From Branchiostoma lanceolatum (taxonomy: Eukaryota > Chordata > Leptocardii > Amphioxiformes > Branchiostomatidae), in the NCBI RefSeq assembly GCF_035083965.1, contig NC_089727.1, positions 19,595,269-19,659,268 on the forward strand: a stretch of 64,000 bases of DNA, in the 5' to 3' direction. The translations under genes and the position numbers were made by a program. The notes under the pieces were generated by a model. It was not told the origin of the DNA. It did no database searches and saw nothing but the letters and a program-made list of their open reading frames with translations. Shown in pieces: positions 20,412 to 60,851 of this stretch. Within the stretch, counting starts at the first letter, position 1. Every line of letters begins with the position of its first letter.

Positions 20412-20616
20412 GTATGAAAGCGGCTAAACTAGATTATATAAACGTAATTGTCTATAACTAGTGAAGGGTTTGTCTTCTCTTTTGTAAGCGATGGAATACG
20501 TTATGTCCCACCTTTTCAATAATTTGTGGGGTTTGGTAGTTAATTTAAAAGAAGAATAGCATTTTCTTTGTCTGTTAGCTTAGAGAAATTCGGATAGATT
20601 TTAGAGATGAATATGA
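20412..20616. other. Flank upstream of stathmin-like copy A
   Basis: Ordinary AT-rich sequence before the start of the tandem duplication, which begins near 20617. Confidence 0.4.
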
Positions 20617-20770
20617 GTTCTCGAACGCCATTTATGACGCGCAACGATTTGCCAACGTTCCTCGGATATACATCGTTTATGATGTCATATTCCATCTTCA
20701 AGCTTTGTTTGGAACAACAAAGATTCAACCCCCGTTTCATTGACTGGACACGGACACAGTGCCTCCCAAG

Positions 20771-28090: not shown

Positions 28091-28254
28091 ATGTAAGTTC
28101 TCCAACGCCATTTATGACGCGCAGCGATTTGCTGACGTTCTTCGAACGGATATACATCGTTTATGACGTCATATTCCATCTCCAAGCTTTGTTTGGAACA
28201 ACAAACATTCAACCCCTGTTTCATTGACTGGACATGGACACAGTGCCTCCCAAG

Positions 28255-31200: not shown

Positions 31201-31987
31201 TGGAGGGACGCCTGGCTGAGAGGAGAGCGCGTGTGAGTAAGGCAGCGACAGCGGACGCACTAGAGACGCGTCAGAACCTCGCCGCAAAACGCCGCAAGGT
31301 GAGTCAACTATAAGCCCATTCGTAGATTCGAGTACGCATGTGCAGTGTCAAAGGTGAAGGCCCCTGATATTTTGTTTTTGTTTGTTTGTAAGCAAAACAC
31401 GTCTGGGCGTTGTTATGCAAATCAAGACAATGGTCGTGACAGAACTTTATACAAGCCAGGGGCCTTACCCTTTGACACTGCACATGCGCACTCGAGTCTG
31501 AGAATGGGCTTATTCACTATAATGATAAATACCACAATGTAGGAAATATCTTCTTTGCCATAACAAGAAAATCTAATGGTTGAGATTCCTACAAGCATCG
31601 ATTTTTGCCTAATTTAAAAAAGAAAAGAAATTTTGTTCCCTTTAGGCGATACATGACAAGAAAATTTCGAAAATGAGACAATTAAAATTATGTCGTGTTG
31701 TAGCCTTGTGTTACAATTACTTGTACAAGTGCCACTAATCATGAGGTAGCCGTGGATGTAGTTGTAGTGAAACTCGGCCACCACACTTTCAGTATTTCTT
31801 GTTTATGAATACAGGAATTGAAAAAATAACTTGCATTAGACTTTCTGCATCTGTTTGGTGATAAGGTTAATTTTCCCTCCCACTCATACAGGATCACGAG
31901 ATGGCTACCGTCTCCAAGGCTAAGAAGCTCGCCCGTCCCCACATCACCAGCCCCGCCCAGCAGGAGCCAGGCTGTGCCGGCAACTAA
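28255..31987 (+). CDS. Stathmin-like protein, tandem copy B
   Basis: Exons 28255-28369, 29021-29331, 31044-31298 and 31892-31987 have exactly the lengths of copy A and also give 258 residues. I count about 30 amino-acid differences from copy A (about 88% identity). They are concentrated in exon 1 (10 of 38 residues), while exon 3 differs at 6 of 85. The FLSCC motif, the EKSSTDILAQLRSEG segment and DLKRQLSDAEVRRQ are unchanged. An extra in-frame ATG at 28234 could add seven residues. Both frames are open with intact splice sites, so both copies look functional. The family assignment carries the same uncertainty as for copy A. Confidence 0.6.
28769..29020 (+). repeat. Repeat head supplying the exon 2 acceptor, copy B
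   Basis: The same module as 21249-21506, retained in the duplicate and ending at the exon 2 acceptor. Confidence 0.6.
29985..30297. repeat. Foldback with CTGAAGAAGG/CCGAAACGTC, copy B
   Basis: Paralogous to 22437-22762. Here the inner hairpin GGTGTC-TGATA-GACACC is perfect, between CTGAAGA (30201) and GAAAC-GTC (ending 30233). Confidence 0.7.
30755..30990. repeat. Single arm of the 13.9 kb foldback, copy B
   Basis: Counterpart of 23222-23497 with an internal deletion. It ends CCCAGGTATGACATAAATG, about 50 bp before the exon 3 acceptor. Confidence 0.65.
31328..31500. repeat. GTGCAGTGTCAAAGG MITE, copy B
   Basis: Counterpart of 23828-23985. Ends TGTGCAGTGTCAAAGGTGAA and CCTTTGACACTGCACATGCG. 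Confidence 0.7.
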
Positions 31988-37862: not shown

Positions 37863-38026
37863 CTATGCGTGTATTTCTGGACAACATAACGGAAGTAGTT
37901 GTCGGGATGGATCTGTTTGATATCTTGTATATCAGAAGGTAATTCCGACACTCGGAAATATACGTTTGATAATGACCCCTTAGCGGCTTCTGGGGGTATT
38001 GAATCAGAAAACTGTGTGCTCTAAAG

Positions 38027-41000
38027 ATGGCCGATATTGCCATTTTCTACCTAGTTGCTGCTGAAAGCGGCGATGGCGGTCGCACTGTGCCTACCAACGG
38101 TGGGGATGTGCGCGGAACAGTGCAGTACATCAAGGATTTGCCCGACAAGCCAATCCACACTTTCCTGGGGATCCCGTACGCAGCGCCCCCTGTCGGAAAC
38201 CTGCGGTTCCGCGCACCACAGCCTGTGGTTCCATGGGAGGGCGCCAGGGACGCTACAAAGCCCGGTCCCTACTGTCCGCAAGGTCAAATGGTCTTTCAGC
38301 TCTTCCCCTACAAATTTCATCACTACGATTTCGACGAAGACTGTCTAACGATAAACATCGAAACGCCTACAGTTGAAAAAGATGCCGAATTGCCTGTAAG
38401 TTATTCTATTCAGTATCATATATTATCTAAATGGTATCCTCTATTACTAAGTTGAAAAAAATGCAACAGCATACATACTGACTCAATAATATAATACCAT
38501 ACCCATGTTGATGTTGACGAATAAGACAGTTCCAAGTGCGCATGTGCAGTCGTGACGCATTGTGGTCTAAGGTCAAAGTTTAAGGACGCTTGTCATTCTT
38601 TTTCTATATTCCATAGAATTTTATCTTAGACACAATATGCATGCGCACTTGGCATTTTGAATTGGTTTATTAAAAACACAGAACAGTTATAGAGCTTCCT
38701 GTCCTAAAACATGGGATTAATGTAAAAATCGGATGTCAAATGTCACCTAGCCAAGTATTAATACATTCAAAAAAATCACATTCAAAGGGTTGTTGGACAT
38801 ATAAACTCCATCTAGTGCATAATAAACACATCTCATACAGCACAGGTCGTCCGTAATTGCTTCAAAACAAACATGGTGACCTATGACCTGTGTCCCAAAG
38901 TGACCTTTACCCTGTTCGTACAAAACATTATGTGTCTGTGTCAAATTCACATTTCAATGAAAATTACCAATTAGGTAATGCTGTGGATCCACGGAGGGGC
39001 ACTGTTCTTGGGATTCGGGTATGTCGCGCCATTTGCGGCCCTGGTTGCTCAGCAAGATGTTGTTGTCGTGACGTTCAACTATCGCCTGGGTGCCCTGGGC
39101 TTCCTGAGCACTGGGGACGAGAACGCTCCTGGGAACTTCGGCTTCCTGGACCAGGTAAGCTACTCCCATGCCATTCACGGGTTTCACACTTCCCAGAAGT
39201 ACTTGTGCTGGGATCCGGAAACGGATATTCTCCAGGCGACAACAATTTCACTCAGCGTGCGAAACCACTAAACATGGTGGTATGTGGGCGCAAGAAATCT
39301 AATGTAACCGAGTAAAACACAAACACAAAAACAACTCAGAGACGGCAGTTTGGTGCAGAACCGTGCAAAGGACAGGGTTAATTTAATCTTTAATGCCTTT
39401 CTGATGGAACACGAGATGTGACCTACATGTATGAGGTCATCGGGCGGAACCAACTAAACATTGGCTAGTTGTCCAGAAAAATACCTTTGTCCACAAAACT
39501 TGTCAAATTCACATCCTCACTATTATTTGCCGGACAGCTCATAATTTCCTGTGTTTTACCGTCCTTTTACTCAAGGTTTTAGCTGTTTCCTTCTTTGCAC
39601 GCTGAGCGAAGTTGTTGTCGCCTGGAGAATATCCGTTTCCGGATCCCAGCACAAGTACTTCTGGGAAGTATGAAACCCGTGAATGCTATGATATGCCTTG
39701 TTATGCTATATTATGCCAAAAAAATAGTTAAGCAACTGGATTTTGAAACAGACGTTTCAGACAACATCCGCTATCTTACGTCAGTGACTAAGGAAATTTA
39801 AGGTTTTATACCCAAACTCTCAATGGATATGTTAATAAAGTGAAGACAATTTCGGACAGTTTAGTAGAATAGTATGTCAAGACAAGGCTGTATGCTAAGG
39901 AATCAGTTAACGTCTGAAACGTCTGACTGTTTCAAAATTTCATCTAGTTGCTTGAGTAACTATTTTTTACTAGTACCCAGATGTCTAACTTTCATCAACG
40001 TATATTATGTTATGTTATGTTGTGTTATGCTACGCCACGCTACGCCACGCTACGCTATGCTATGCTATGTTATGCTATGCATCGAGGATTATCAACGGGA
40101 ATAGATGTATCCAGACGACAGCCCACCTGCCAGCGCTCAAGTCTAGACGTGACGAAGCAGCCTTAAAACTCTTTCAACAGATGCAATCTGAAGACCATCC
40201 CTTGCACTACATGACAACAAGCAGTCGGCAACAACAAACCGGCAGAACTCTCAGAAACCATAACCACAGAACTCTACCTACTTGTAGGACCGAACGGCTG
40301 AAGAACTCGTTTCTGTTTCATGCCACAAAACTGTACAACCAGTCACTTTCGTGAACTTTTAAACGTGTAATGTGGTAAAAACCATCGTTTTTAAATTGTA
40401 TTGATCTTTAAATCGTCCTAACATGTATATTTATGGCTATCTAAACTCGTCATTCCTGTCCGAGGGTTTATTCTTAATGCCACGCACACAAGCTTGCAAT
40501 TATTTTTATAGTTCAAGGACATTTTAGATCAAATTGAACTGTGACCTGTATTTTGTATAACTAGTGGAACCTACAATTGTTACTGTCAGAACAATTCAGG
40601 ATATCCAGTAGGATATCCTGCCAGTCTGCATATTTTGAATAAAGTTACTATGCTAAGCTGTGCTATGTTATGCTATGCTATGCTATGCTATGCCATGCTA
40701 TGCTATGTTATGTCAGCTATTTAAGATATCTTAAAAATCAACAAGGGCAAGGTCTAGTGTGAATAGTGATGTTTGTATTTAGCGTTCGGGTATAATTTAC
40801 AATCTTACTAGTAAAGATATTGTTATTATTGAGTCTCGCGAAATATTGAAGTATATAGATTAAATTGTATTATATTCCGTAGGATTGCATGGTACACTGA
40901 TAGAATTACATTGTAATCGGTAAAGTTTCTGAAGTTAGTTATAGAATCATAATGTATTCGTAAATTTGCTAAGTGTACAAATGAAATTGTACTGTGCTCG

Positions 41001-44000
41001 GTAAAATTGCTATGTATAACTGGGCACCCCTATTAGCATTCCTATCAACTAAAGTTTATAATTTTTCACGTTTTCTATAAGTGAGTGCTGGTGACAAAAC
41101 ACAAAAGTTTGTATCATAATCATCTTAAAAGGACTAGCATTATATGAAATGTTGACATCTATTAGAAAGCGATAGCATTGTAACAGTGGGGATCAACCTC
41201 CACTAACTGACCAGTCTAACTGGTCCGGACCATTTAGCCTAGTGGTTAGCGCGTTGAGTTCCTAAGCCGTGCGGGTCGAGATTGGCGCTAATCAGTGCGT
41301 GAAAAAGAATAAAGATTTCTCCATATTTAAAATGCTTCCCTTTCACAGGTCGCAGCAATGGCTTGGGTTCAAGAAAACATCCGAAACTTCGGAGGGGATC
41401 CGGACCGGGTGACCATTTTTGGCGAGTCCGCCGGTGGGGTGAGCGTTGGTAATCAAGTCGTTTCCCCTCTCGGTAAGGGTCTGTTCCGGCGAGCGATCTC
41501 TCAAAGCGGCACCTATAACACGATGGAGATCGAGAAGAAACCTCTAGAGATTGCTACAATCTTTGCAGAAGAAGTCGGCTGTGAGGCAAAAGATACGGCG
41601 ACCCTGGTGGATTGTTTGAGGCAGAAGACTGCAGATGAACTAGTGCACGGTGCTGAACGCATGATGAAATTGGATAGTGGCGAATGGGGCAAATATTTCT
41701 ATCCCTCGCTTGACGGAAACTTTTTCCCAGAACACCCGAGGGATCTGTACAACAACGGCCAAGTCAATGACGTAGACTATCTTCTTGGAGTAAACAACAA
41801 CGAGTATGGATTTGTGATGCCATCCTCGATGAGTTCTAATTTCGGACCAGACGGAATGACAGAAGACGCCTTCATTCTCGAGCTGGAGCAACTCGTAGAG
41901 AGAAACTATCCGGTAAGAATATGATGAGCAAAATTGGCACCGCGTAAAATGACATTGTTTTGGCGACGGTGGTCTCTGTTAATGTTTTCGTTTTATATAT
42001 ATAGTAAGTTTATTGATTCGTACATTCATTCGTCTCTAAAATACATGGCAGCGTCCTCAGTGCAGCAGAGGACGCTGAATTGTGTACTTTAGGTATACAT
42101 GTGTTACATTTAACATAATGTAACTCAAATTTACACATGCAACTGGGGCCTCACTTGCATAAATTATATCAGTTCATCACCTTCTCTACCCAAATGACAC
42201 AAGTTATCCGATATATTAAAGTCCTGTTTAAAACAAGGACATTATAACATTTCCTCATTGATAATGTAAATGAAACCCTGATTTCTAAACGTTCCTCATT
42301 ACTGATGCAAATCATCGCTTAAGCTATCTACATACCAAAAATCATGGTGATCCGTCAGCCCCTTCGTGTGTTATTCTGTGTCAAAGTTTAAGGGGAAATT
42401 CCCTCCGATCGGCCCACAACTGACCAATCCTACCATTGTTTTTGAATCAGGGTACAAAGAAGGACAGTATCGTAGCAGCCGCTCGCAAAGTGTACCGTGA
42501 CCAAGACAACCCAGATGATCCAATGGCCATTCAGCACCAGTTTACACTATTCTCTGGCGACCAAATGTTCGTGGCACCAACTGTCGATACCGCAAGCAAA
42601 CACGCAGGTAAAATTGCATATTTTTATTTATATATTTATATATACAAGATACATGTACAATGACAGATATCTATTTTTCTTATTCAGAAGTAAGACTGAT
42701 ATATTATGTTTTTATGGGGAACTAAGTTTTAAATTTGATTAATTGACATGTATTAGGATCCGTGACATGGGGGTGTCCCTGCGGTGTAGTGGTCTGCGCC
42801 TTTGCTACTGTGCCACATCTGGTTCAAATTACTTGGACCAGAAGGACTGGGGTTCTAGCCCCAGGTAGGGCACCTCTGGACAAGAGGCGCATTGATTCAT
42901 ACCAAAGACTTTATAAAAATGGTACATACTTATGAAACAGTATGGAAGTTAAACACACTCCACTGCCAGTGGACTAGCCCCCTGCTGCAGTGATTGCACC
43001 ACAGTGTGGCCCCAGGGCTATGAAACGGAGATGGGCACCGCCCTATACATCAATTATGGTGTGGGAGGATTTTAACTATCTTAAGGATCCGTGACGGGGG
43101 GGCGACATAAACTCTCTGGCACTTTTACCCAATTTACAACGTTACGTTTCGGTAATGTCACGTGATTAGTCATTAGAATATGTTGACGACTGCAATAATG
43201 ACCAATAATTTCTGACTCATTTTTTATAATGTTGAGACACCGTCTAGATCTTTCCCTTGGACAGAGACAGCAGTCGGTACTTCCAACCACCTTTGACCCC
43301 GTGGTGACGTGTGTCCTCAGTTATTGCCTTCGCCGAGAAGGTTATGCATAGGGTAGCGTTTGTTTGTTCGTTTGTAACGACCAGCATATCTCGAGAAGAG
43401 TTGAATGGATTGTTTTGCTATTTGGTAGGCGGGTAGGTCTTGATGAGACTTGGAAATGATTAGATTTTGGGTCCCCTGGAGGCTTGCTACAGCACTGCAG
43501 CGGAACTTCCTGCTTTGATATCTTGTGTTCTGGAAATGCTTTGGTCCTGATTTTTGAGTGGTAGATAGCTCTTTGGAGAGAGAGTAAGTGGTATAGGTTT
43601 TCGCCCCCTAGCGGCTTTTTTTGGAACTGCAAGGAGCAGGTTTTGGTTCAGACTTTGAAAGGGAATACCTCGAGAAGGGCCTGATGGATGGTCATTAATT
43701 TTGGTAAGTAGATAGCTCGAGTGATGATGTACATGATTAGATACTTATTATGCTTATAAATATCTATTTTGCATAGTTAATGAGGAAAGTTTATACAGCC
43801 GCCAAATTTCATGATAGGACTCTCAAACATGTGACATATGTATCTGAGGAAGAGAGAAATATTAATAGATAGCAACTATGCAAATGAGGACCTCCTTTGT
43901 ATAATAAATGAGAAAATACAATAACTCAAGATGGGCTTGATGGGTGGTCATGAATTTTGGTACGTAGATAGCTTACGTGATACTTTCTATGATTGGATGA

Positions 44001-47000
44001 TAATTATGCAAATTAGATTGTAATTCGCATAATTAATGATTAATTTTAAAAACCTGCTGTGTTCCATGATATGACTTTTCAAATATGTGGCATTTGTAAC
44101 TGAGGAAGAGAGGGATGTTGATAGATAGAAAATTTGTAATTGTAGGCCTAATTTGCATAACTAATGAATGACTACTATAATTCCATACAGGTAAATGATG
44201 GCAATTTCATACTTGTGGCATTTGGAAGTTATGTGAATGTGAACATAGTTCAATCAAATTACGCTGATAAGGACCTTATTTGCATAATTGATGATGTTAG
44301 CACACCTTTCTCAAAGCTCATATATACTTTGGACAACGTCTGTTATTTGGGTGAAGACGATCAACTAGTATGATGTATAATTGATGAGAGGCACTCCTAA
44401 TACGTCAGTCATAAAGGTTAAAATCATTTGGCGAAGGTATGAGGTCGTGGAACTCGAAAAATTGGCTTCTCCCAATCTTCAGGTTAAATCTAAGCTAAAA
44501 CCTTTTCCATAATAGGTGTTTACTGTTATTTCAATTTTTTTTAATTTTATATTAGAATCTGGGTCTAAGGTTTACCTTTATGAACTTCACTACGTGCCTT
44601 CGGCCAAAGCTGCTTCCCGGCCGGAGTGGGCAACTGGCTGTGACCATGGAGACGACCTGCGCAGTATGTCCGGCTGGCCGTTCCTGGACATACGTCTAGC
44701 AGACGGGGGCGTGCTTCCATTCTCATCGGAAGACAGGAACTTCAGCCGCCACATCATGACGTACTGGGCTAATTTTGCTCGTTCCGGGTACGTGTGCTAT
44801 ACTACTTTTCATTGTACCGGGTACGTGTGCTATACTACTTTTCATTAACCCTGGGAACCAGACTAGGACCGGGCCGTCAGCGAGTCCCATCGGCGGCCCG
44901 AGGCAGTCACCCCGCCCGATCTAAATTAAAGCTCCGGGAAGTTTAAATGGGCTAACTTTGCTCGTACCGGGTAAGTCCCGACGACAGTCTGGATCCAAGG
45001 ATACTTCTCATTCAGATCTAGCGTAAATAAAAAAGGGAGCAGGATGTAGGGGGACTGTCTTTAACCCTATCCAGACTGGGCTTTTTTGGTATATCTGGGA
45101 ACGGGGGGGGGGGGGTTGGGCTGATTCGGCCCCCCCCCTCATAATTTCCGAACGGTATGATGTATCATCACCAAATTTGCAGGGAGTGATATTCACGTCA
45201 AGTTTTATAATTCCTGTAATTTTGGTGACGTTATGACGTAATATGACGTAATTATGACGTCATCGGTGTGATTTTATTGGCTAATTAGGGAATTCCCGTA
45301 ATATCTAAAGGAATTAAACAAAAAGGTTTGTATTATTCATTTTAAGGTATGCAAAGGCATACAACGTCAATGGTAAGTGCGTTGACGTCAAAATTACGTC
45401 ATAAAATGGCGTCATGTGTTGTTAGTGATCCCTTGGGATCCGCCATCTTGGATCCGCCATTTTGAAATTTTTAAAAATCCTTCTTTTCCACTTATGACCC
45501 CAAAGAACACTGAATATAGACTAAAAACGTTTATCTAAATGTTCCTGGTAAAGAAAATGTCAGGTATTGACGATTTTAAGGGCGAAAAAGCCTGCTGATA
45601 CCTGAAATACTGATATAGTCCGCCATCTTGGATTTTGGCTGATAACGTCATCAAATTAGCATAAATTATGAATATTAAATCAGGAAAGTTACATCTAATT
45701 ACATGTAATGTTATACATGTAGGAAAACTAGTGTAGTTGTGGAAGAAAACCCGAGAAATATCATTGTTTTCAAAAAATTCATGATTTTTGCATAAAATGC
45801 CAGTCAGAAACCCGTTGCCATGGCAACATGAAAAAATGATAAACTTAAACCATTATTATAAAATTGTTGGCAACAAAATTTTAGGAAAAGTCACCAAGTT
45901 TGGTTGTCCTAGCATACATCGTTCGGCAGAAATACGATGTCAAAGTTGGCGCGGGCACTTTTAGCCCCCCCCCCAGTCTGGATAGGGTTAAAGGCACCCA
46001 GAGCATTTTATGATCCTTGAAAACTGGAAATGTTCTTGTTGCTGTAATTTCTATAAAATTGACATTCAATGCCACTGTTTACCATATTTGCGTGCAGATT
46101 TCTTTTCAAAAGTGCTCAAAAGCGGCACAAAAATAAGATACATGGTGATCTTTTAGTTTCACGCGCCAAGTGTAAATAGACCAACATTATAGCCCCGCAC
46201 ACCTCCGTCAAAACGTAGAAATGCAAACTTAAAACATAAAGTTGCAAATATTTGATGAACGTGTAGTCACTCTCTCATTTGCTGAACCGCTAATTATGAT
46301 GGACAGTCAGGATCAGTTTGTTAGGGTTTGGATTTTCTATCAGTTCTCACCACACAATGACATCGTATCTTTGCTCCTTTAATGTCGATATGTAATGGCA
46401 AAGTGTTATTGAAACTTATTTTGTGTAGGTATGACAAGAAATTGGATTTTTTTTTAAATTCAAGTTTCAAGCCTCATAAAATGCTCTGGATGCCTTTAAG
46501 AGTGACGCTGTGCAATTCAGAAAAGTGAGCGGTGTTTTTTTTTTATAGCGTGAGCGGTGTTAGATGAAAAGTAAATCGACTAAAAACAAGATGGCCAACA
46601 CACTCACACAAACACGCGCGTGTAACAAAAACAAAAACATACTACTTTTTGCAATTCAAAAATAGCGTATTAATAACTAGCAACTAACTCCTTCCGCCTG
46701 TTTTCTTTTTCAAGTTGTAGTTTCAATTTTATATTTGTTGCTTCCCAGCCAGCAACAAGAAAAAAATGTAATAGTAAAATTATTAATTGACACCCGAAAG
46801 GGGTCTGCAACGGAGGCTAGTGTTATATAAGCAATTGTGCTTTGTGACTGATAATAAATATTTGATAATAATGAAATAAAAACAAATGTTGATTTATTCG
46901 ATCAGGAACCCGTCTGATCCTACCGGTGGCCCCACTGACAGCCCCGTCGTACCAGAGTGGCCTCAGTACACACATGACGACCCCGCCTACATGAACCTGG

Positions 47001-47104: not shown

Positions 47105-48238
47105 CCCAATAAGAAATAGCCTGGGACTCAAATGACTGTGTATCTCTGTTATATTGTATCTGACCCTTACCTCTTCCCTCATGACCTTAATGAAAAGCGG
47201 CCTGCGTGCCGATTTGAGCTTATCATGAATAAACAAAGGTTCTAAGTGGCCTACAAAGCCAGTCACAGAGAGATGAAGTAACTAATGGTCTGTGGAGTTA
47301 GCAGGTAATTTTCAAGAGGTCCGTCTGATAAGACAGAATATAAAAACATGTTAGCATAGAGAACAGTAAAGACACTCAGAGAGCTACGGCAGCTCGCAGG
47401 AAAGAAGGCACAGTGGAAAAAATGAAGAAAGACCGAATGTAGCCAGAGGTTGTTTCCACAACCTCTGAGCCGCAGAACACAGTGGATCATCATGTAAGCA
47501 TAACCAGTATCACGTAGTCATAGGCAGTCCGTCTTAAAAGTCTCCCGTTCTCTGAGAAAGCTTCTAAGAAAAATCAATTAAATGCAGTGACATATTGTTG
47601 TTGCCGCCTTTTGCCAAAATCCGGACAGCTTCTTTGAAAGCTGTGACTTATTTACCTTTCAAAATCAAACTTTACTCATGACAATAAAAGAAGAGCCAGT
47701 CCAAGCATGTCATTCATGATAACAAAAACCAAAAAACTTTTGAGACATTGAGAAACAACACTAGCTATGATGTATGGGTATATATTGCAACATCCAGAAA
47801 GTTTATTTCAAACATCGATAAACAGCTGTAAAAGTGTATACAAACTAGGGCATTTTCTATGCCGTATGCCTTGCTATAGAAAAGGCCATACCTGCAAGGC
47901 GTTGCCCAAAAGTAGTTCCCTAGGGAGTGCGTTCGCGGAATTCCTAGAATATTTTGCAAACCGAAAGCAGTACTATACAATAGGCTTCGCCCATGAGGCG
48001 TCGCCAAAAACCGATTACTGATAATATATCACAGATTAAACGTAAACAATTTTCATTAAGAAGCGAGACTAGAAATATTACAATACTAGCAAGTGCAATG
48101 TGATTATATCATATTTTCAAAATGTAAACAACTGGGACATTCATAGATACTGTAAATCATGACCAAACTAGAAACATGTCATTAAGAAGAACATTTAGGA
48201 GCTGTTGGGGTTTGATAGACGATGAAATATAATCAGGA
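47105..48238. other. Convergent 3' flanks of esterase and FkbM-NodB genes
   Basis: An AATAAA for the esterase lies at 47228-47233. A reverse-strand AATAAA near 47802-47807 could end the FkbM-NodB transcript. No other gene was seen. Confidence 0.45.
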
Positions 48239-49285
48239 TCATTCTCCGATACAGTCTGAGAGGCTGACAATATCAAATCCAGAGCTCTCATGCAGATAAT
48301 CCAGCAGATATCCTGATATCAAGTAGCTGTCGGGGTAGTCCGAGTCCAGGGTAAGGACGCCACCTGCCGGGGATAGTTGTTCATGCAGCATGCGGAGAGC
48401 ACGTGGCACGCGCATGACGTCTGTGAACTTGTAGTAATTCTCCTCTGTCAGCACGTGTTCTGTATAGAAAAAAATATTGCCTACGTTTTCACAACAGAAA
48501 ATAATGAAACCATTATTGGGGATAAAAGACGTGAATTTCTTAACGAAGCCACCAAAATACAAATTACATGATTTAATCTTACCGTTCCTTAAAAAGTCAC
48601 CAAGTAACTCAAATTTCACCTTTGTTTTGCCGACAGCTATCGACAAACCAAATCTCATCAAGATCCACCCACTGCTTCTCAGATCTTACTTTGAAGAGCC
48701 AAACAAGCTAGCTCAGTCGTATACATTGTATCTCACCTGACTGCGCCAGATTACGTCAGGAATTACGCCATACGTCAGGCATTGCGTCAATTACGCCAAA
48801 TTACGTTACGTCGGGCGCAAACCGTCGCGCAGTCCAAATGAGATACGCGCTTAACTAAGTAACAAGTGCTCATTGTACGTACGTAAATGGCGAGAAACAA
48901 ATGACACCAAAACGAAAACCCTCTTGGTGAAGGTAGATCTCTTCGGAATTTCACAGTCTAAGTTCAAGCTGCAGACCAGATTCAAGTTGGCTTTCTTGTG
49001 AATCGCAGTGTTGCCAATGAATTAAGAACCAATGTACAACGATACAGATTGATTCAAAAGGGATTTGCAGTGATTGCGACACTTTGCGCTAATTGCGAAT
49101 TTTATTTTTAACAGTCGCAAGTTTAGGCGATGAAGGCTAATGTGTTTCGCAATTTGGCGCAGTCCAGTATCATATCCGCTCTCTCTCTCTCTCTGTCTTC
49201 TTTCCCTCGCTCTTCCTTTCTTTCCCTCTCCCTATTTCTCTCTTTTCTCCTCTCTCCTTTCTCTCTCCCTTCTCTCTCTCCCCTC

Positions 49286-49326
<41 letters not shown>

Positions 49327-52300
49327 TCTCTCCCCTTCTCTCTCTCAATCTCTCCATACCTACTTGTCTCTCTTTAACTATCTCGCTGGGTCTTCCATCT
49401 CTCCGTCTGCCCCCCTCTCTTAACATCGATCAATAACGTACACATTCCTGGACCCTGCTTACCGTTAGTCGCCATGTTCAACGGAGGGAATCTGGCTGTC
49501 GGTTGGACGATTCTCAGTCCCCTCCCTCTCGCTACATCCCTGACTCTGTCCGTGATGACATCGGGTAGGTAGTAGGAGGGCTGCAGTCCGATCTCGCGAT
49601 GGCGGAGGAGTGCGCTGACCAGACTCATCCGCACCCAGCTGGACCCCATCATGGCGAAGTGACCGGGAGGAAATGGCTGACTCTATAAGGCACAATTTGC
49701 ATAGGTATGTATTGCTAAGGTTAAGCCCCCCTCTCACTGCACCCGCGGCACGCTGGCGGCGTCGCTGCGGCCGATCAACTTGACAAGCTTAAAGGAAGGT
49801 AAAGCAGTTTTATTCCCCGAAAATTAGATTTTGAAAGTCATTCTATTTAGTCATTTCCATACATGATTAGTTCAAACAACACTATCACAATGTATAGCGA
49901 CGTTCATCATGCAAAAGTACGACGTCGTTGTGATGTGAGAACTCACAAAAAATCGTCACTGCCATAAAAATTTCAGCATTTATCTATGTCCTCTTTTTTG
50001 GCCATAAAACTGCTTTACCTTCCTTTAAGGTACTCAACGAATTTCATCGACAAAAAATAATACTTTTAAGCTTTGTGTGGTTTGTTGTCTTTTCGGTCAT
50101 ACTTGTACGTTTTTGATGATATTCCCATTATAAAGTCAAGGGTAACACAAATCCAGTTAAAAACGCAGCGACGCCGCCAGCGTGCCGCGGGTCCGGTGAG
50201 AGGGGGGCGTAAGGTTAAGGTACATTTCTGAATTATTTCCGGTAGCTTCTAAATGGAAGTGGGTGAAGTCTGCCTTGTTAATTTTTTTCAGTACTTGACG
50301 ACCGATTAAAAGAGGTCAAGGGATAGGTGAGGTGAGGATAGGGGACATTCTACGTTGAGAAATTTGGTGACTTAACCATTTCGATACAACCACCATTTTT
50401 TACTGAGGAGATTCGGGTATTAACAATTTGAAAGAGACAATGAAGGTTGTTGTATATTGAATTTTGAATACTTTGTTCTTTATGTAAAGATGTAACTACA
50501 CAGACACACAAACGCTACTGAAAACATAACCTTCCTGGCAAAGGTCAGTTTTCTCCTATAAACATCCAACATCACTAGCACTCAAACCGTGCATTGTCTT
50601 CAATGACAGAAGAAAGGTTTCTATTAAAGTTTTCTTTAAAGAATTTAGTGTCAGTTGTTAAACTAGAGTTGTAGAATACTATATTGTTCACTGTTTCTTC
50701 ATGTTAAATGTATTTGTAATTAGCCTACGGGCAAGAACTTGCAAGCAAAATTTTACTCATCTAGAAGTGTTAAGATAGTCCCTTTAACTAAATCTGTCAA
50801 CCGCATAGAGATTATAGGGACTTGTGTACAATGTATAGAATGACGACCGAACCTCTCGTATTCCTATGGTGAACCTCTTGGCCCAGTCTGACACTAGGTT
50901 GGGGTAGGCTTCCACGAAGTCCCCGTACACGAACAGGGTTGCCGGCAGGTTGCTGCCGTGCGCCGCGATGGTCTCCACCAGTTTAAAGGCAGCCTTGCCG
51001 TTCATCCCGACCTGGACCGCAACGGTTACACTTTTGTCTCCGCCCGAACAACTAGAGATGACCGCTCCCGGAGAACCAGGCACGTTTGCTGGGACCTGCG
51101 CCAAAATATATATATGTTGTTACTGTATGTTGACCTCATTACGTAATATGTCATGACCCCATGACGCTGGAGGTCACCTGCCTCGTGATTCGGCCATCTT
51201 GTCCGCCATCTTTGTTCCTTGAGTAAAGTTCACTGATTAAAGCTGTACTCGGTTTGCACTTCAAGTTACCGTCTGGAGTTGCCCCTTGCGGTCCAATTTG
51301 ACGCTGTGCAATGTGAACATTAACAGTAGAATACATTTTGATTGGTTATTGTTTATTGTTTAAACGCATTTATACAAATATTTAAAAAAATGTATAGGGC
51401 AAAAAACATGCAGGGGGGCAGAAGCCTATGTGACTTTTCGTTGGCTTCCCCTCGAAACTAGACAATAGGAATTTTAAAAATTGTACATAATCGAAACTAA
51501 GCAAAACTGACAAAAGAAGAAATCAAATTATACCTCCATATATAAATATGAACATTAGCAATATCACGTTAACAGTGGTTTAGTAATCTCAATAATGGGG
51601 GCAAACATACGGCAAAGGTCTAGTGGTCGCGACGGACTACATGATTCTGCACGAACAACTATGACTAGGGATGGTAGTGTCACCAAAATGAAAGCAGATC
51701 TGCAGTGGATTAATCTCCAAGCAGATCTAAACGGGGCGCAAAAAAACGTATATGCTAGCCAGAGAAGGTCCAGTCAGCCTGATAAGCTCCAGCCAGCCCC
51801 GTTGTTTCTGAGGGGAAACATTCCCGCTGTGAACTGGCGCGGCCGGCTACGTTCGTCCCATATTCAGGTTGTAAACGATAATCCCTGCCAATGTTCACAT
51901 TGGAGTTTAAAGCAGGCACGAGGAGGAGTAGAGACAGCTCTCTCAATAGGTTGCCCCTCCTCGTGCCGGTTGATAACCTTGTTCAGGCCCGTCTTAGCGC
52001 AGATCCTACGGGGCTGGCTGGAGCTTATCTGGCTGACTGGACCTTCTCTGGCCCCGTGTAGGCCTGCTTGGAGATTACAGTGGATGTCACTTGAGGACAG
52101 AAGAACAACGTCCATACTTTGCATGATGTACAAAGTGACTAATAAACTTGTGAGTGTACCGACTGATAAGAATCTAATGCCAGCTCAGAAGGGACTGGAA
52201 ATAGTCATGCTTTTATGTTTTCGAGTACTCGAGGATTGCGGTGTTCAAAAATGATTTTCCGAGAGCAATAGTAGAATGGAACTCGTTATCATCAAGTAGT

Positions 52301-55300
52301 GTAGGAGTATCCTCACTAAATAGCTTTAAAGAACGGTTGCAGTCAGATAGGCAAAGACTAGGTGTAACGACAGACCGTTCGATGTAATGTAACCAGCTGC
52401 GCCGCGGACGAATGGCGGTTAATATACCAGCTATATAGAGATACACATACATGACAGTATTTTGTATAGCAATTTTTAACGTCCGTCAACTCTTGGTATA
52501 TACAATAAGGTGTTATGAATGAGTTACAGTTATATACCGAACAATTCCAACCCTACTTTTACTTACCAGCACTTGGATGGCGTCGAAGTCTGCGTAGTGG
52601 CGACCTTCGCCCTCCCACAGCAGTGTCGGAATACTGGTGCTCTTCTTCAACTTAGCTATGAGGTCTCTCTGTTTCTTTAAGGTCCATCCTGCCACAGGCC
52701 ACCCGAAATGCCACTCACCGTAGAACCTGCATGTAGGCGCAAAGAGAAGAAATAACTTGATAGCATCTTTCTTTATTTGGTATCTTTGCAATCCCCATAC
52801 ACTTAACCATCGACATCAACTGTTACATTAAATGACCTTAGCATACAAAGGTACAAAACACATTGTATAACATCATATCTCACACATAACACTATATACA
52901 TCATTGTCATACATCATATGATACAAAAAGCATAATCCAAATATCATAGCAAGCTTACAGGTAAATCACTGTATCATGAACAGGTCGATCGAAATTTCGA
53001 TGATATATTGATATCCACAAAGTGTAGGAATCAATAGGAATTTCTCTTATTTTCCTTGAGACGATTCCACGTCGAAGAAGGATGTGTTACAGCAATCCAT
53101 TAATTTGATCATACTGTCGATTCTTACTCTCCACACAGAGGAGTGGGTCCGGCTGGTTTTGACGCGGTTTTAGGCGTTTTTGTCGGGCTTTCAATTTTGT
53201 TATGTTTTTTTTTTTTTGGTCTCACCAGTGTGTGTTGCTGAGACAAAAAGACATAACAAAGTAGAAAGCCCGACAAAAACGCCTAAAAACACGTCAAAAC
53301 CAGCTGGACCAACTCCCCTGCTTGAAAAGTAGTCGATTCTGACCTTGTTTGATTCACAATGGTGCTTAAAACAATAGCTTAAAACCCTATCCAGACTGGG
53401 GGGGGGGGGGCTAAAAGTGCCCGCGCCAACTTTGACATCGTATTTCTGCCGAACGATGTATGCTAGGACAACCAAACTTGGTGACTTTTCCTAAAATTTT
53501 GTTGGCAACAATTTTATAATAATGTTTTAAGTTTATCATTTTTCATGTTGCCATGGCAACGGGTTTCTGACTGGCATTTTATGCAAAAATCATTAATTTT
53601 TTGAAAACAATGATATTTCTCGGGTTTTCTTGCACAACTACACTAGTTTTCCTACATGTATAACATAACATGTAATTAGATGTAACTTTCCTTATTTAAT
53701 ATTCATAATTTATGCTAATTTGATGACGTAATCAGCCAAAATCCAAGATGGCGGACTATATCAGTATTTCAGGTATCAGCAGGCTTTTTCGCCCTTAAAA
53801 TCGTCAATACCTGACATTTTCTTTACCAGAAACATTCAGATTAACGTTTTTAGTCTATTTTCAGTGTCCTTTGGGGTCATAAATGGAAAAAAAGGATTTT
53901 TAAAAATTTCCAAATGGCCGATCCAAGATGGCGGATCCCAAGGGATCGCTTACAACACATGACGTCATTCTATGACGTCATTTTGACGTCAACGTACTTA
54001 CCATTGACTTTGTATGCCTTTGCATACCTTAAAATGAATAATACAAACCGTTTTGTTTAATGCCTTTAGATATTACGGGAATTCCCTATTTAGCCAATAA
54101 AATCACATCGATGACGTCATAATTACGTCATATTACGTCATAACGTCACCAAAATTACAGGAATTATAAAACTTGACGTGAATATCACTCCCTGCAAATT
54201 TGGTGATGATACATCATACCGTTCGGAAATTATGAGGGGGGGGGGCCGAATCAGCCCCCCCCCCCGTCCCAGATATACCAAAAAAGCCCAGTCTGGATAG
54301 GGTTAACACCCACACGAGTTTTTTTTTTCAATAACATGCTGTAGTTTTGCCTTCCCAAACAACAATATACTGTATGGCATGAAGTATAGAAAGTGCAATT
54401 ACAGAACATGAACATACCAATGTCCTTGTAACGTTATGATTATCATTATTATTTTCTAAAATTTAAAGGTTTTAACGTTATATACGATAGGTTTTAATAT
54501 GTACATGTTGATGTAGGAAATATTGTTATAGCCCGTTATGCTGTCCGTTGTAATGTCTTGTCTTTGTCAGCAGGCTAGTTGAGCAGCCATGACTGTGTGT
54601 CCTGAACAATAAATAAATAAATGATAATGTCCTTGAAGTAATCTCTAGGAGTTTTCCTTCTTAAACAAAAGCTGCTAAGACATCAGAATACAAAATACCC
54701 TGGGTTCCAGACTGTTTATCGGGCCTTTTTAGCCGGTTCCCTTTAGCCGTTACCTTGTAGTCAGCTTCTTCGGTGACACAGAGACCCCAGCCCGCAAAAC
54801 CCTAATTAGCGCACCGGGGGATTTCTAGCCGGGGAATTGACCGGCCGCGGTTCACTCCCACGGGCTCATTTCCCACCGTAGGAAATCGCTAGCGACCCGG
54901 TACTAGTCTGGCACCCAGGGAAAATACAAAATGAAGCGTCGTACTTATCTATCCACTTGAAGGTGCCATCTTCTAGCATTTTCTTCAAGACATCGAACTC
55001 TCCACCCTCTATATCCATCTTCAAGACCACGTAGTCCTCCAGCCTCGTGTTCTCCTGGATCCAGAGGGACAGGTCGACGGTGTCGACTGTGTGGCGACGA
55101 GTCATTCTCTGTGGCCCGCCGGCTTTGTCCTTTTTCACCGCATCATCTACAAACAGTGTACCCCCTCCCCATTTCACGTACTTCCCGTGGTACGTGCCTA
55201 AATCTGGTGACCACGCAGCTTCGGCGTACGCCGTCATTTTACCTGTCAAAGCAAAAGCCCCAGTCACACTTGTGCGTATATAAAAGCCCGCATGAGTTGA

Positions 55301-58300
55301 GTTAACATGTTTTTTTTTAAGATTGCAGCCGAAGAAGTTATTTCTTTAGTTTGATAACTAGACTGCTCAACGGTGGGTCAAGGTCGAAAACAGCTTATTC
55401 CCCGCAAACTTTACTTGAACCAAAACATGTTACTGTGGAACTCATACAGACTTGAATATACGCACAAGTGTGACAGGGCCCAAATATCTTTTTGTCATTT
55501 TTTCACCGCGTCATTAACAAACAGTGTACCCTCTCCCCATTTCACGTACTTTCCGTGGTACTTCCCTATGTCTGGTGACCACGCAGCCTCGGCGTACGCC
55601 GTCATTGTACCTGTCCAAGCAAAGATCTATTTGTCATTTTTCACCGCGTCATTTACAAACAGTGTACCCCCTCCCCATTTCACGTACTTCCCGTGTTACG
55701 TGCCTACATGTATGTCTGGAGACCACGCAGCTTCGGCGTACGCCGTCATTGTACCTGTGGAATCAAAGATCTATTCGTTAAGATGGATAATGGGTTCATA
55801 GCGGTCGTTACACCAATAGCACCAAAATACAGCATTCCCGGATTACTTTTTTAATTCAGAAGTATTATCAAATAAACACTTGTTGTATGTACAAAATATA
55901 TACACTTCTGATGTTATTGAACATTTCTTTTCAAACTAGAGTTCCACGAACACATTATCTTCGCCAAATAATCAAGGCTTATTATGGAGAGTGATTAATA
56001 TTTACATGCTCATCACCCCCTGCAAATTTGATCATGCACCATACCATTTGGAAGTTATGATGGGGCGAATGAGTCCAGTCTAGAAAGGGTTAAAAAATCA
56101 TTTGGTGGTACAGGACTAGTATATGTGTCTAGTGTGCTGATATACGTTATAACTGGTCACGAAAAAATTTGAGTATGTTGATATTATATGGGCCACAAAG
56201 GTTCGATATTGCAGTGTTGTAAGTTGAAAGTGATGATGAAATGGCACAGTCAATATATATGAATAGAATAAATCTTTATTCCATATCATACACATCTTGA
56301 AAGACATAGTACATGTGACTTTTCCGCACCTAGAAGTGGTGCAGTTTTGGTGCAGTATACTCTCCAAGCAGAGGAGTGGGTCTGGCTGGTTTTTGACGTG
56401 TTTTTAGGTGTTGTTGTCAGGCTTTCTATTTTGTCCTCTTTTAGTTAAGTCGCCAACCGTGTTGAACAAAAATGCCTGAACTGAACACGTTAAAAACCAG
56501 CTGAACCCACACCTCTGCTTGGAGAAAAGTGGGTGCCTCATCTGTTTATTTATTTGACCTACATGTACGTTTATGCAAGGCCATCTGTTTACATGACCTG
56601 ACTGTCCCATGTCCCATAATGAAGTGCAGTGGGTTAACAAACTTTCCTTACTAATTATGCAAATAAGCTCCTGATTTGCATAATTAGTCATTGATTATGT
56701 AAAGTACCATCTGAGCTCTCTACATACCAAACATCACGACGATCTATCGACCCCTTCTCAAGTTATTCATGTCCGAATGTCAAAACAAAAACACCCACTG
56801 CAGTTCTAAACAAGCCGCTAGGGGGCCCAACTTTACAGAACTTACTTTCTGTGGCATTAACTATCTACCACACAAAAATCATGACCATAGCACTTTCAGA
56901 AAATATGGCCCAAAATTTTTAAGCTCCGCTGCAGTACCTTAGGTACCCGCTAGAAGGCCCATTATCGAACTTGACCTTCCTTTCTGTAAACTCTACCCAT
57001 CTACTAAATATCATACAGATCCATCAACAGCTTCTCGAGTTATGCTGGCGACATACAAATACACATCCACACAAAGCCCGCTGCAGTACCGACGGAAAAT
57101 GCCAGGGGAACCATTTTTGAACTTGACCTCCATTTTCACAACATCTACGCACCTGCAAAAAATCATGAAGATCCATTAACGTTTCCGTCACTTTTTTTGC
57201 CTACATACAAACACAAAAAAATGCAAAGTCCGCTGTAGTACTGTTGAAAAACGCAAGGTAAACCATTTTCGAACTTGACCTTCCTTTGCACAACCACTAC
57301 ACACCTACCAAAAATCATAACGATTCATTGAAGCTTTCTTGAGTTATGCTCCTGACATACATACGGACCCACCCGACAGATTTTTCAACCGAAAACATAA
57401 TCTTCCCGAGTACAAGTACTCGGCGAAGATAATCATACTTAGGCCACAGCAAGTAATTTTTGTGGATGACATCAGCGCGCTCATTAATTTTCGCCTGATT
57501 TCGAAATAAAAAACAAGAAATTTCATTGCCCTCCGACGGTGGTCAACATGCCAAAAATTTGCAAATATGTCGTAAACGTTGACAGTCTAAGGTGTTTCAT
57601 TGCATATGAATACCCAGTGTAGTTCCTGCCCATGATGGTATGATAACAAGCTGTTTTCTGCATTTGTTCTAGCAAGGACATTATATAAATAATGGGGAGA
57701 GGGGTCTAGTTGATTGAGCTGTATACACAAGGTGTTTCATCGCATATGAATACCCAGTGTAGTTGCTTCAGATGGTGGTACTGTAGGTACAACAAGCTCT
57801 TTTCTGCATTTGCTATAGTTAGTCTATTAAGATGTATACACATCTACAAGGACATGTTTATCTTCGCCGAGTATTAGTACTCGGGGAAGATTATGTTTTC
57901 GGTTGAAAAATCTGTTGGGTGGGTCTGTATGTATGTTAGGAGCATAACTTAAGAAAACTTCAATGAATCTTTATGATTTTTGGTAGGTGTGTAGTGGTTG
58001 TGCAAAGGAAGGTCAAGTTCGAAAATGGTTCACCTTGCGTTTTTCAACAGTACTGCAGCGGACTTTGAATTTTTTGTGTTTGTAAGTAGGCAAAAAAAAG
58101 GTGACGGAAACGTTGATGGATCTTCATGATTTTTTGCAGGTGTGTAGATGTTGTAGAAACGGAGGTCAAGTTCAAAAATGGTTCCCCTGGCATTTTCCGT
58201 CGGTACTGCAGCGGGCTTTGTGTGTATGTGTATTTGTATGTCGCCAACATAACTCGAGAAGCTGTCGATGGTTCTGCATGATACTTAGTGGGTGGGTAAG

Positions 58301-60851
58301 GTTTACAGAAAGGAAGGTCAAGTTCGATAATGGGCCTTCTAGCGGGTATCTAAAGTATTGCAGCGGAGCTTCAAAGTTTGGGGTGAAATTTTCTGGAGGC
58401 GCCAGGTTCATGATTTTTTTTATAGTGGATGGGTCTTGGGGCAGAGAACAAGTGGTGTAAGTTTGGGCCTCTTGACGACTTGTTTTGAGCTGCAGTGGGC
58501 CTTTATGTATGAAACTTTGGAGGAGGATAACTCATGCAGGGTTTGGTGTATCTTTATTGCTTTTGGTTCGCAGGTACCTTAGGTGATGATTAACATAATG
58601 AAATGTATAGTATGCAAATTGAGACTTCATTTACATAATTAAAGAGAGTAATGTATAATCCCATTGATAGCTGTTACCCGACCTCAATTCAGGGACACTT
58701 GGAGGATTGCCTGGCTTGGGATTTAGGTCACCCAGCTGTGTGCCAGCTGTGCGCCCTTCATTTGGTAATAACTCAAGAAGGGGTCAATGGATCATCATGA
58801 TTTTTGGTTTGTTAGATAGATAGATGGTAATTATGCATATGGGACCCAATATGCATAATTGATGAGGAAAAACCATAATTCCATAGTGATCAATGGCAGG
58901 AATTCGATACTTGTAGCATCTGAAACTTCATTAAACTTGTTACATATATCAGCACACTCTACACATATACTAGTCCTGTACCACCAAATGATTTTTAACA
59001 CTATCTAGACTGGACTCTTTCTCTCTCCCCCCCCCCCCCCCAGCATAACTTGGTGTGGTGCATCATCAAATTTGCAGCGGGTCATAAGCATGTAAATATT
59101 AATCACTCTCCATAATAAGCCTTGATTATTTGGCGAAGATAAAGTGTTCGTGGAACTCTAGTTACTGTTGAATCAAGGAGGTTTTATATTATATATGAAT
59201 GAATACAGGACTAATACATTCGTTGAATACAGGACTAAAAGACCTGTTGGTCATGATATCATATTTCGTCGCCTCCATTCTTGTTTGACAAGAATTATGA
59301 TCTCAAAATGTGAAAATATAGGAATCTTGTTTTTTTTGGCCCGCCTTGTTTTTTTTTCGCCCTATCTCATTAATTTTGGAGTCTGCGGAGGATGTCATCC
59401 ATAAAATTTACTTGCTGTGGCCTTAGTTCCATGACGAGTTTTTGGTTTAGAGATAGACAACACAGAGACACCGCTGTTGCAACACGTATGCAAGTAATGT
59501 TTCGGTCCCAATTGGAAAAAGGGGCCCCGCCGGGTAGTTCACGGGATTGATTTTCTTTTCTTCCACTTTCGGGCGTGACCCCTACGTTGCCCCGTGGGGC
59601 ATCCTGTGGCTTCCCCACGGGTCCCGGGCCCCGCGTTGACTTTAACTCGACGCGAGACTCGGTAGCAAATAGACGCCGTGAGCTATTCGCGCACCGGGAG
59701 GTACCCATCACCCCCCACCCTCACCCCCACCCCCCCGTAAGTATACCGGGCAGTCTACCGGGACAAATTTCTGGCTTCGGGGCCCGGCCTGGACTACATC
59801 CTCTCCAGGTACCAAAGCATGATGGAATCTTGGCAGAGTGGCATAGCCTACCGTTCTTGTTGGAAGCGGCAATCGGACAGTGCAGCACATGGTCTGGATA
59901 GGGAGTGAAGTAGGGAGCCATCCTGGAGTCCAGCTCGAAGGAGTGCACGGTGAACTCCTTGCCGGCCGGGTACATCTCCCGCAGCATCTGTACACTAGAG
60001 GCGACGTTACCGCCCACGTCTAGAAAGATCTTCTTAGGTCTGCCGTCAGAATGTTGTACGTGTCTGGAAATAATGAAAGCTCGACAAACTCGTTACCGAC
60101 ATCACCATCAAAATACTCAATGACATTGTGCGTATCTGTACGTATGTGTGCGTGTATATTATATACGTTATGTGTATGTATTTGCATGTCTAAAAATGGA
60201 TACGCATAGTAACAGTGGCCTGCATTTTATGACAAGAGGTGTGGAGGATTTTGGGTGAGTGACTTGGAGAGGGGGAGAATGGCATCAGAAAATATTGCAT
60301 GTAAATATCAAACTTAAAGTCTCTTAGCACGAATGTTCATCTGAGTTGGTAAAATAAATAGTTAGAAATAAATTGTTCTCCCACTCAATCACCGGAATTT
60401 TCGACCGAATCACTCGGTCCTCATCGGCTATTTGACCCAAGCGCTGTAGACACGTGATTTCGCTCGTGTGACGTCAGCACCGGGTCAAAGTTCGTCGGAA
60501 GTCGGTACCACCCCCCCGGCCTGGTTGAGATAAGGTTTGTGTGACCTGATTTATCTTAGTTGATTTTAGTTCTACCATCGCGGATCCTTTTTAATGTTAT
60601 AACATTCTTCTAAATATATAATACGTTCATACAACAAATACCCCCGTCCTTTCTATGTTATACATGAGATGCTCATACATACAACTTGATATTACTTACG
60701 GCTTCATCCATGGTAGGTCTTTATATGGTAAATCCTCTCGCCTGGACTCCACTGGTGATTTTGTGTCACGTGACGTACAGATGAAACACAGGAAACAGCC
60801 GAGCACGAACGCGATGACATAGAAAAGGCGTCGCGAACGAGGTAACTCCAT
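48239..60851 (-). CDS. Membrane-anchored FkbM methyltransferase fused to a NodB-like domain
   Basis: Seven coding exons: 60851-60700, 60063-59852, 55242-54945, 52726-52567, 51095-50853, 49676-49463 and 48459-48239. All phases close and give 499 residues. A type II anchor lies at about residues 8-25 (RLFYVIAFVLGCFLCFIC). The FkbM-type (Methyltransf_21) SAM-dependent methyltransferase follows, with IFLDVGGN (63-70) and VVLKMDIEGGEFDVL (193-207), closing in FYGEWHFGW. From about 296 a polysaccharide deacetylase (NodB) fold is suggested by SVTVAVQVG, PATLFVYGDFVEAYPNLV and the final GFDIVSLSDCI. The NodB metal-binding TFDD and HxxxH motifs are not visible, so activity is doubtful. It is probably a Golgi/ER glycan-associated enzyme, an inference from the anchor and the folds. 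The donor at 50852 (GTTCGG) is the weakest junction. Confidence 0.8.
48750..49150. other. Intron 6 of FkbM-NodB gene
   Basis: Short ATTACGTCA/ATTACGCC repeats at 48750-48810. Nothing else was recognised. Confidence 0.4.
49176..49355. repeat. (CT)n-rich tract
   Basis: An irregular CTCTCT/CCCTCT low-complexity sequence. Forward Ser-Leu-rich frames here are artefacts. Confidence 0.9.
49723..50211. mobile_element. AAGCCCCC MITE with a second MITE nested inside
   Basis: Outer ends AAGCCCCCCTCTCACTGCAC and GAGAGGGGGGCGT, with aaggtt on both sides. The core matches 33130-33382. Inserted at 49789-50028 is a different element with ends TTAAAGGAAGGTAAAGCAG and CTGCTTTACCTTCCTTTAA. The outer element ends 46 bp from the exon 6 acceptor. 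Confidence 0.75.
50212..50780. other. Intron 5 of FkbM-NodB gene
   Basis: Contains a fragment of the dispersed module (AAAACATAACCTTCCTGGC near 50520) and a retroposon-tail word (AGCCTACGGGCAAGAACTTG at 50723). Otherwise unremarkable. Confidence 0.4.
51100..51700. other. Intron 4 of FkbM-NodB gene, right part
   Basis: No gene or clear repeat was recognised. The 219-codon forward frame at 51595-52254 runs through the foldback below and is not a gene. Confidence 0.4.
51714..52078. repeat. Foldback with CTCCAAGCAGATC ends
   Basis: GGTCCAGTCAGCCTGATAAG at the left is inverted as CTTATCTGGCTGACTGGACC at the right. The centre carries inverted CAGGCACGAGGAG/CTCCTCGTGCCGG. The ends resemble the CCAAGCAGATGT family. 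Confidence 0.7.
52088..52386 (+). pseudogene. CR1-like retrotransposon tail, frameshifted
   Basis: CMMYKVTNKLVSVP is followed, after a frame change near 52230, by NDFPRAIVEWNSLSS and SLNSFKERLQSDRQR. This is the usual end of CR1-type ORF2 proteins. It is non-functional. Confidence 0.65.
53128..53327. repeat. Foldback MITE with CAGAGGAGTGGGTC ends
   Basis: The arm TTTTGACGCGGTTTTAGGCG and AAAGCCCGACAAAAACGCC pair across a T-rich loop. A relative is at 56361-56525. Confidence 0.7.
53379..54306. mobile_element. TTAA-flanked inverted-repeat element, copy 2 (inverted)
   Basis: A close, reverse-oriented copy of 45061-45991 with the same ends and TTAA at both borders. It lies in intron 3 of the FkbM-NodB gene, 7.4 kb from copy 1. 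Confidence 0.7.
54703..54920. repeat. CCCTGGGTTCCAGACT MITE
   Basis: CCCTGGGTTCCAGACTGTTT and AGTCTGGCACCCAGGG are inverted; the interior is GC-rich. It ends about 24 bp from the donor of FkbM exon 3. Confidence 0.65.
55494..55610 (-). pseudogene. Partial duplicate of FkbM exon 3 (inner copy)
   Basis: The first 115 or so bases of exon 3, with its acceptor (GGACAG), are repeated upstream. The frame reads MTAYAEAAWSPDIGKYHGKY and later DAVKK, then stops at TGA. The downstream half and donor are missing. Including it would truncate the protein. Confidence 0.75.
55633..55754 (-). pseudogene. Partial duplicate of FkbM exon 3 (outer copy)
   Basis: A second copy with acceptor CCACAG and MTAYAEAAWSPDI. 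A short ACATGT insertion is followed by an in-frame TAA, then sequence ending in KNDK-stop. The same half of exon 3 is represented as in the inner copy. Confidence 0.75.
55930..59163. repeat. 3.2 kb foldback with 1.3-1.5 kb arms
   Basis: The left arm 55930-57430 and right arm 57870-59163 are inverted copies. Outer ends: ACTAGAGTTCCACGAACAC and GTGTTCGTGGAACTCTAGTT. Inner ends: CATAATCTTCCCGAGTAC and GGGGAAGATTATGTTTTCGG. Each arm contains several related modules of about 190 bp (CGCTGCAGTAC, AACTTGACCTTC, AAAATCATGA). A MITE (56361-56525) interrupts the left arm only. The spacer 57431-57869 carries a tandem pair of 'aaggtgtttcatygcatatgaat' units. Confidence 0.75.
56361..56525. repeat. CTCCAAGCAGAGG foldback MITE
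   Basis: TCTCCAAGCAGAGGAGTGGG is inverted at the right as CCCACACCTCTGCTTGGAGA. It is inserted in the left arm of the large foldback and absent from the right arm. Confidence 0.75.
59495..59800. repeat. GC-rich dispersed repeat
   Basis: Shares TCCCAATTGGAAAAAGGG, TAGACGCCGTGAG and CGCACCGGGAG with 24870-25155. It lies in FkbM-NodB intron 2. Confidence 0.55.
60120..60690. other. Intron 1 of FkbM-NodB gene
   Basis: No repeat family or exon was recognised. A short C run lies at 60508. Confidence 0.4.

Follow-up and report, generated by a model that had tools for sequence, protein, structure and literature searches.

Drosophila Star and human METTL24 are membrane or secretory FkbM-like proteins in which a membrane or signal segment is combined with an FkbM-type domain; to our knowledge neither carries a NodB-like C-terminal domain. 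In the heparan sulfate N-deacetylase/N-sulfotransferase (NDST), a type II protein of the Golgi, a deacetylase module is joined to a group-transfer module. Here we describe a minus-strand gene model in a 64,000-nt window of Branchiostoma lanceolatum DNA (NC_089727.1; the window is the whole stretch that was analyzed, and gene coordinates are positions in it), which places a hydrophobic N-terminus and an FkbM match ahead of a C-terminal half that may have a NodB-like fold. Our best explanation, to which we give an even chance, is that a single gene codes for an FkbM O-methyltransferase that is a type II membrane protein and carries a NodB-like barrel lacking the CE4 metal and catalytic residues.

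With the short bacterial members of the FkbM family (PF05050/TIGR01444; e.g., WP_309163929.1 of Pelagibacterium), the lancelet chain shares the DxG motif for S-adenosylmethionine (SAM) and KxDxEGxE, to which it adds an N-terminal hydrophobic segment, about 225 C-terminal residues and six coding introns. Its likeness to the NodB/CE4 deacetylases (PF01522; e.g., PdaA of B. subtilis) consists of a possible collinear barrel and of ATLFVYG compared with ATFFVLG; however, the match is sub-threshold and none of the motifs MT1 to MT5 is intact. NDST differs in its transferase and in its opposite domain order, and its deacetylase is active. Inert NodB proteins without catalytic or metal residues have been described, namely ECU11_0510 of E. 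cuniculi (2VYO) and BA0150 (4M1B) (PMC10967932; PMC5855634). The lancelet chain, compared with these by description only, would likewise have lost such residues, and the available parts of those reports make no mention of a methyltransferase fused to them.

Gene model, hydrophobic segment and methyltransferase half

Seven exons, all joined in phase, encode 499 residues and a stop codon (Table 1); an alternative exon 6 acceptor at 49682 would give 501 residues, two more. The first ATG is at 60851, with an in-frame stop codon immediately upstream. An acceptor-like AG (unscored) would set the exon start at 60873, which points to an untranslated 5′ exon upstream of it. An AATAAA at 47807, approximately 0.4 kb beyond the stop codon, fits a predicted transcript end, with the same signal occurring also in introns 2 to 6. 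Log-odds of codon use, for which 664 codons from other genes of the window served as training set, were positive for all seven exons in the frame used (GC content at third positions 0.54–0.71), and the score was equalled or exceeded by 3–15% of 190 open stretches, which may themselves include true exons.

The 12 splice sites were scored against a rough consensus and ranked against all GT or AG dinucleotides of the minus strand. Five fell within the top 1% (the acceptors of exons 2, 3 and 7 and the donors of exons 4 and 6) and four within the top 2.9–5.5% (the donors of exons 1 and 2 and the acceptors of exons 4 and 5). Several observations count against a single protein of the kind we propose. 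Three sites are weak: the donors of exon 3 (top 16.5%) and exon 5 (top 13.7%), and the acceptor of exon 6 (top 27.8%, compared with top 16.9% for the alternative at 49682). Both sites of the exon 5/6 junction are among them. The codon score of exon 6 is higher in another frame than in the frame used. The chain lacks an N-glycosylation sequon, a mildly unusual feature if it is lumenal. Finally, conservation gives the fusion no support, since no relatives were found in the viral, phage and prokaryote collections searched. These scans find close relatives only: with the whole chain no stretch of the viral contigs matched the pattern, with the C-terminal half 11 stretches matched and none was confirmed, the phage collection gave no match, and in prokaryote genomes, where the FkbM part alone was the query, none of 15 stretches was confirmed.

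The weak splice sites, the partly duplicated exon 3 and the many repeats in the introns could also be expected of a decaying or non-functional gene copy. We consider this very improbable, as all seven exons are open, codon use is coding-like and the FkbM motifs are present. Alternatively, exons 1–4 and exons 5–7 may be two adjacent genes that were wrongly joined. The exon 4/5 junction coincides with the domain boundary and intron 4 contains an AATAAA at 51357, as would suit two genes, although introns 2, 3, 5 and 6 contain this signal as well. However, among GT dinucleotides of the minus strand the exon 4 donor ranks within the top 0.1%, phase 0 is kept across the junction, no ATG occurs from the preceding in-frame stop to the start of exon 5, and a search of intron 4 for an alternative first exon, defined as one that reaches a GTRAG donor in phase 0, found no candidate. 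Two genes appear improbable to us. As a gene model, the order of anchor, FkbM methyltransferase and second alpha/beta domain has support, with one transcript predicted to span all seven exons.

Residues 9–27, which follow a basic N-terminus, have a mean Kyte-Doolittle hydropathy of 2.43 and contain the six best windows of the chain. This suggests a type II anchor, and the remainder of the chain is predicted to be lumenal. The methyltransferase half passed both curated cut-offs, with 34.1 bits against 22.7 for PF05050 (Pfam; E-value 3.7e-8) and 39.8 bits against 37.7 for TIGR01444 (NCBIfam). Both IFLDVGGN and DIEGGE are present. In a plasmid collection four records matched, all to the FkbM part only (query residues 60–249, 61–227, 174–227 and 171–227), the longest match, over residues 60–249, having 25% identity. 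DVGGN and KMDIEGGE align with four bacterial FkbM proteins that themselves come from two of these four records, and ExH, in the region after KxDxEGxE, aligns with two of the four; the motifs looked for were a DxGxN-type SAM motif and KxDxEGxE. Profile-profile comparison of this half with the same kind of proteins, four bacterial FkbM members, gave a probability of 96. We regard the FkbM methyltransferase domain, a sequence-based assignment, as real and solid, and family knowledge predicts that it would transfer a methyl group to a hydroxyl.

An earlier note on this DNA had proposed seven exons joined in phase into 499 residues, an N-terminal membrane segment and a complete FkbM-type methyltransferase. 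Joining the sequence exon by exon reproduced the first as a gene model, the hydropathy of residues 9–27 agrees with the second, and the motifs and both curated cut-offs uphold the third.

The C-terminal half and the NodB family

We compared the C-terminal half with five NodB profiles built from fetched bacterial proteins, named classic (seven canonical CE4 members), cda, nod2, puuE and all; the last includes classic and is not independent of it, and the result quoted as support is the best of the five. The sets drew on 24 of the 35 NodB domains taken; the other 11 were partial, unusual or near-duplicate and were left out, and three loci proved to be second matches in genes already taken. Decoys were mechanical open frames of the fetched loci, many of them GC-rich; removing 73 NodB-like frames from 353 left 280, of which 120 were used for local and 150 for the larger global hhalign comparison. 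In global mode the C-terminal half aligned with classic at a score of 13.46 over 193 correctly ordered columns. Out of 150 decoys and 150 shuffled sequences, not one reached the score of the C-terminal half. With all, no decoy and one shuffled sequence out of 150 each were above it. In addition, ATLFVYG in exon 5 matches five of the seven letters of ATFFVLG, the structural motif mt7 on beta-2 of NodB1.1 proteins according to the available part of the source (PMC10967932).

Family and structure searches gave further, weak pointers. TIGR02764 (PdaB) reached an E-value of 0.11 with the whole chain and 0.034 with the C-terminal half, and a peptidoglycan N-acetylglucosamine deacetylase was fourth in phmmer (E-value 0.49). 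Exon 5, modeled alone, gave a beta-alpha-beta-alpha-beta arrangement at low confidence (predicted local distance difference test, pLDDT, 59.8), for which the first Foldseek match was B. subtilis PdaA (E-value 1.2, probability 0.35, 42 columns), in a row that sits among many unrelated folds. These pointers and the PF01522 match all fall on a single stretch of exon 5, so that they do not count as independent. A second structure comparison of exon 5 (VIA) had no CE4 chain among the best 50 of 996 aligned, which excludes nothing. Exon 7, also modeled alone at low confidence (pLDDT 66.8), had a best Foldseek E-value of 0.14 and no meaningful match among the 50 matches listed. A sequence search of the PDB found nothing below an E-value of 0.3 for either half, and a PHROGs search with the C-terminal half found nothing.

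Much of this evidence weighs against a NodB assignment. With the whole chain PF01522 scored 17.4 bits (E-value 0.0046), below its cut-off of 23.1, and all curated NodB cut-offs seen were missed. On separate pieces PF01522 scored 13.3 bits for exon 5 alone and 12.1 bits for one other piece, and Pfam did not list it for the remaining pieces, including the C-terminal half of 251 or 227 residues scanned alone. Three of the five profiles, which represent more distant subsets, gave no signal in global hhalign: decoys and shuffled sequences above the C-terminal half, each out of 150, numbered 65 and 47 for cda, 144 and 138 for nod2, and 141 and 147 for puuE. In an earlier global run one of 60 shuffled sequences was above it on classic (0/60 on all, 14/60 on cda, 57/60 on nod2), and hhalign's own probability for the C-terminal half against NodB was 1.6–2.6%. 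In local mode decoys exceeded it in 23 of 120 cases on classic and in none of 120 on all, and the methyltransferase half outscored it on both. Nor did our own HMMER profiles support NodB here: the C-terminal half scored 0.2 bits on classic (5 of 300 shuffled sequences as high), 2.1 on cda (0/300) and 3.7 on all (1/300), with nothing for nod2 and puuE, and the methyltransferase half reached 8.4 bits on classic and 2.0 on all. The local and HMMER modes thus lack specificity: on classic the methyltransferase half has the higher score in either mode, and in local mode it does so on both profiles.

It is possible, if on the unlikely side, that the C-terminal half is an alpha/beta domain of a different or unassigned kind, and that it resembles NodB by chance in a single beta-alpha-beta-alpha stretch. 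It might be a tryptophan-synthase-like barrel, for instance, or a degenerate domain of the Rossmann or methyltransferase-like type. Rival matches of similar or better strength do exist, to Trp_syntA and, in the case of exon 5, to methyl-coenzyme M reductase. However, in the whole chain PF01522 is ahead of Trp_syntA (E-value 0.22), the global alignment with canonical CE4 members beat all 300 of its 300 controls, the matched stretch is the one that resembles mt7 (PMC10967932), and the C-terminal half gave no signal against FkbM. A second FkbM domain was accordingly rejected; the decoys in that comparison were 80 of the 353 open frames, taken without filtering, and presumably include one FkbM protein, a frame with a score of 590. 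Taken as a sequence-based judgement, a NodB origin of the C-terminal half is, tentatively, likely.

Definitions of the NodB motifs were taken from the available parts of two reports (PMC10967932; PMC5855634), according to which the residues missing from inert NodB proteins are of the same kinds as those replaced here. The readings come from one global alignment of a distant relative to classic CE4 members, whose register a fold model could shift. At the MT1 position (TFDD) the chain has AVQV, the tandem aspartates being replaced by Q and V; at MT2 (H(S/T)xxH) it has REPFP, with R and P in place of the metal histidines; at MT3 (RxPY) it has YLPD, in which the proline is kept and the arginine is replaced by Y; at MT4 (DxxDW) it has RFPPL; and at the MT5 histidine it has TLDS, with D instead. 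No TFDD or HxxxH string occurs anywhere in the sequence of the C-terminal half. A pseudoenzyme is expected to keep its core and lose its active site, as the C-terminal half appears to do in this alignment, so the idea of a glycan deacetylase is unsupported. If the C-terminal half is a NodB barrel, it would be a catalytically dead one, and an active deacetylase was rejected as a candidate. An enzyme active both as methyltransferase and as deacetylase, for which the domain order and the precedent of NDST might speak, is hardly credible to us given the changes at MT1, MT2, MT3 and MT5.

The claims of the earlier note on this half fared less well. A working glycan deacetylase, at which it had hinted, is not supported: the best alignment has replacements at the two aspartates of MT1, the two histidines of MT2, the arginine of MT3, DxxDW of MT4 and the histidine of MT5. 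Its NodB-like fold is favored by the global CE4 alignment and the mt7-like motif, and disfavored by the sub-threshold PF01522 score and the low-confidence exon models. Separate profile searches of the halves, which it had proposed, did not list PF01522 for the C-terminal half alone; the FkbM matches exceeded their cut-offs. Of the single protein with anchor, methyltransferase and glycan-deacetylase fold, the order (as a gene model) and the methyltransferase stand, the NodB part is plausible, if weak by sequence, and the deacetylase is unsupported.

Coordinates, repeats and other features of the window

Table 1. Coding exons of the gene model and partial copies of exon 3 (window positions).
Feature	Position	Strand	Remarks
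Exon 1 (coding part)	60700..60851	-	N-terminal basic residues and hydrophobic segment, residues 9–27
Exon 2	59852..60063	-	FkbM domain begins; SAM-binding motif IFLDVGGN
Exon 3	54945..55242	-	FkbM domain core; motif KMDIEGGE
Exon 4	52567..52726	-	Methyltransferase part ends (EWHFGWP); strong donor; phase 0 end
Exon 5	50853..51095	-	C-terminal domain begins; ATLFVYG resembling NodB structural motif mt7
Exon 6	49463..49676	-	C-terminal domain, middle; acceptor may be 49682
Exon 7	48239..48459	-	C-terminal domain end and stop codon
Partial copy of exon 3 5′ half, intron 2	55498..55614	-	Open; without DIEGGE part; acceptor-like start
Second partial copy of exon 3 5′ half, intron 2	55630..55764	-	Stop codon inside; acceptor-like start

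The two partial copies of exon 3 are arranged in tandem. Intron 2 also contains a 0.79-kb foldback (arms 56652–57436 and 57854–58641, 84% identity), and one copy of a 0.93-kb inverted repeat (45061–45989 and 53383–54306, 95.7% identity), perhaps a recent mobile element, lies in intron 3. Elsewhere in the window we observed a 3.7-kb direct duplication (20610–24294 and 28090–31818, 85% identity), in which an open stretch is repeated (21383–21829 and 28927–29343) that has no Pfam match at an E-value of 0.01. Other coding features are three stretches with a carboxylesterase family match at 38003–44848 (+), a stretch with PUB and UBX domains at 15188–16036 (+), which we take to be UBXN6-like, and an FRG1-like exon at 9453–9782 (-).

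A possible role in sugar methylation

In the proposed protein, the FkbM half would carry out SAM-dependent methylation of a hydroxyl of a glycan or glycoconjugate in the lumen of the endoplasmic reticulum or Golgi, and the silent barrel, without deacetylating anything, would either serve as a binding site for the substrate or for a partner or help the enzyme to keep its shape. The more specific proposal of an animal Golgi O-methyltransferase that recognizes its glycan through the fused dead NodB barrel, a retired deacetylase serving as a glycan-binding module, is one we put forward as doubtful. In the open-licence literature we found no report of a protein joining FkbM with a polysaccharide deacetylase or NodB domain, and nothing linking Branchiostoma and FkbM, or Star/Spitz and FkbM. 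O-methylated sugars occur on glycoproteins of molluscs, microalgae and mosses, according to the available parts of three reports (PMC8699351; PMC12507850; PMC8773788). The word methyltransferase appears 0 times in the main text of these and of PMC10301044; it does not follow that such enzymes are unknown, only that the chemistry is described there without naming one.

If the C-terminal half is not NodB, the locus would encode an FkbM protein of the ordinary, anchored kind, followed by a tail of unassigned type. If the seven exons form one transcript, it would provide a concrete animal candidate for sugar methylation in invertebrates, in which a deacetylase fold may have been reused without its chemistry.

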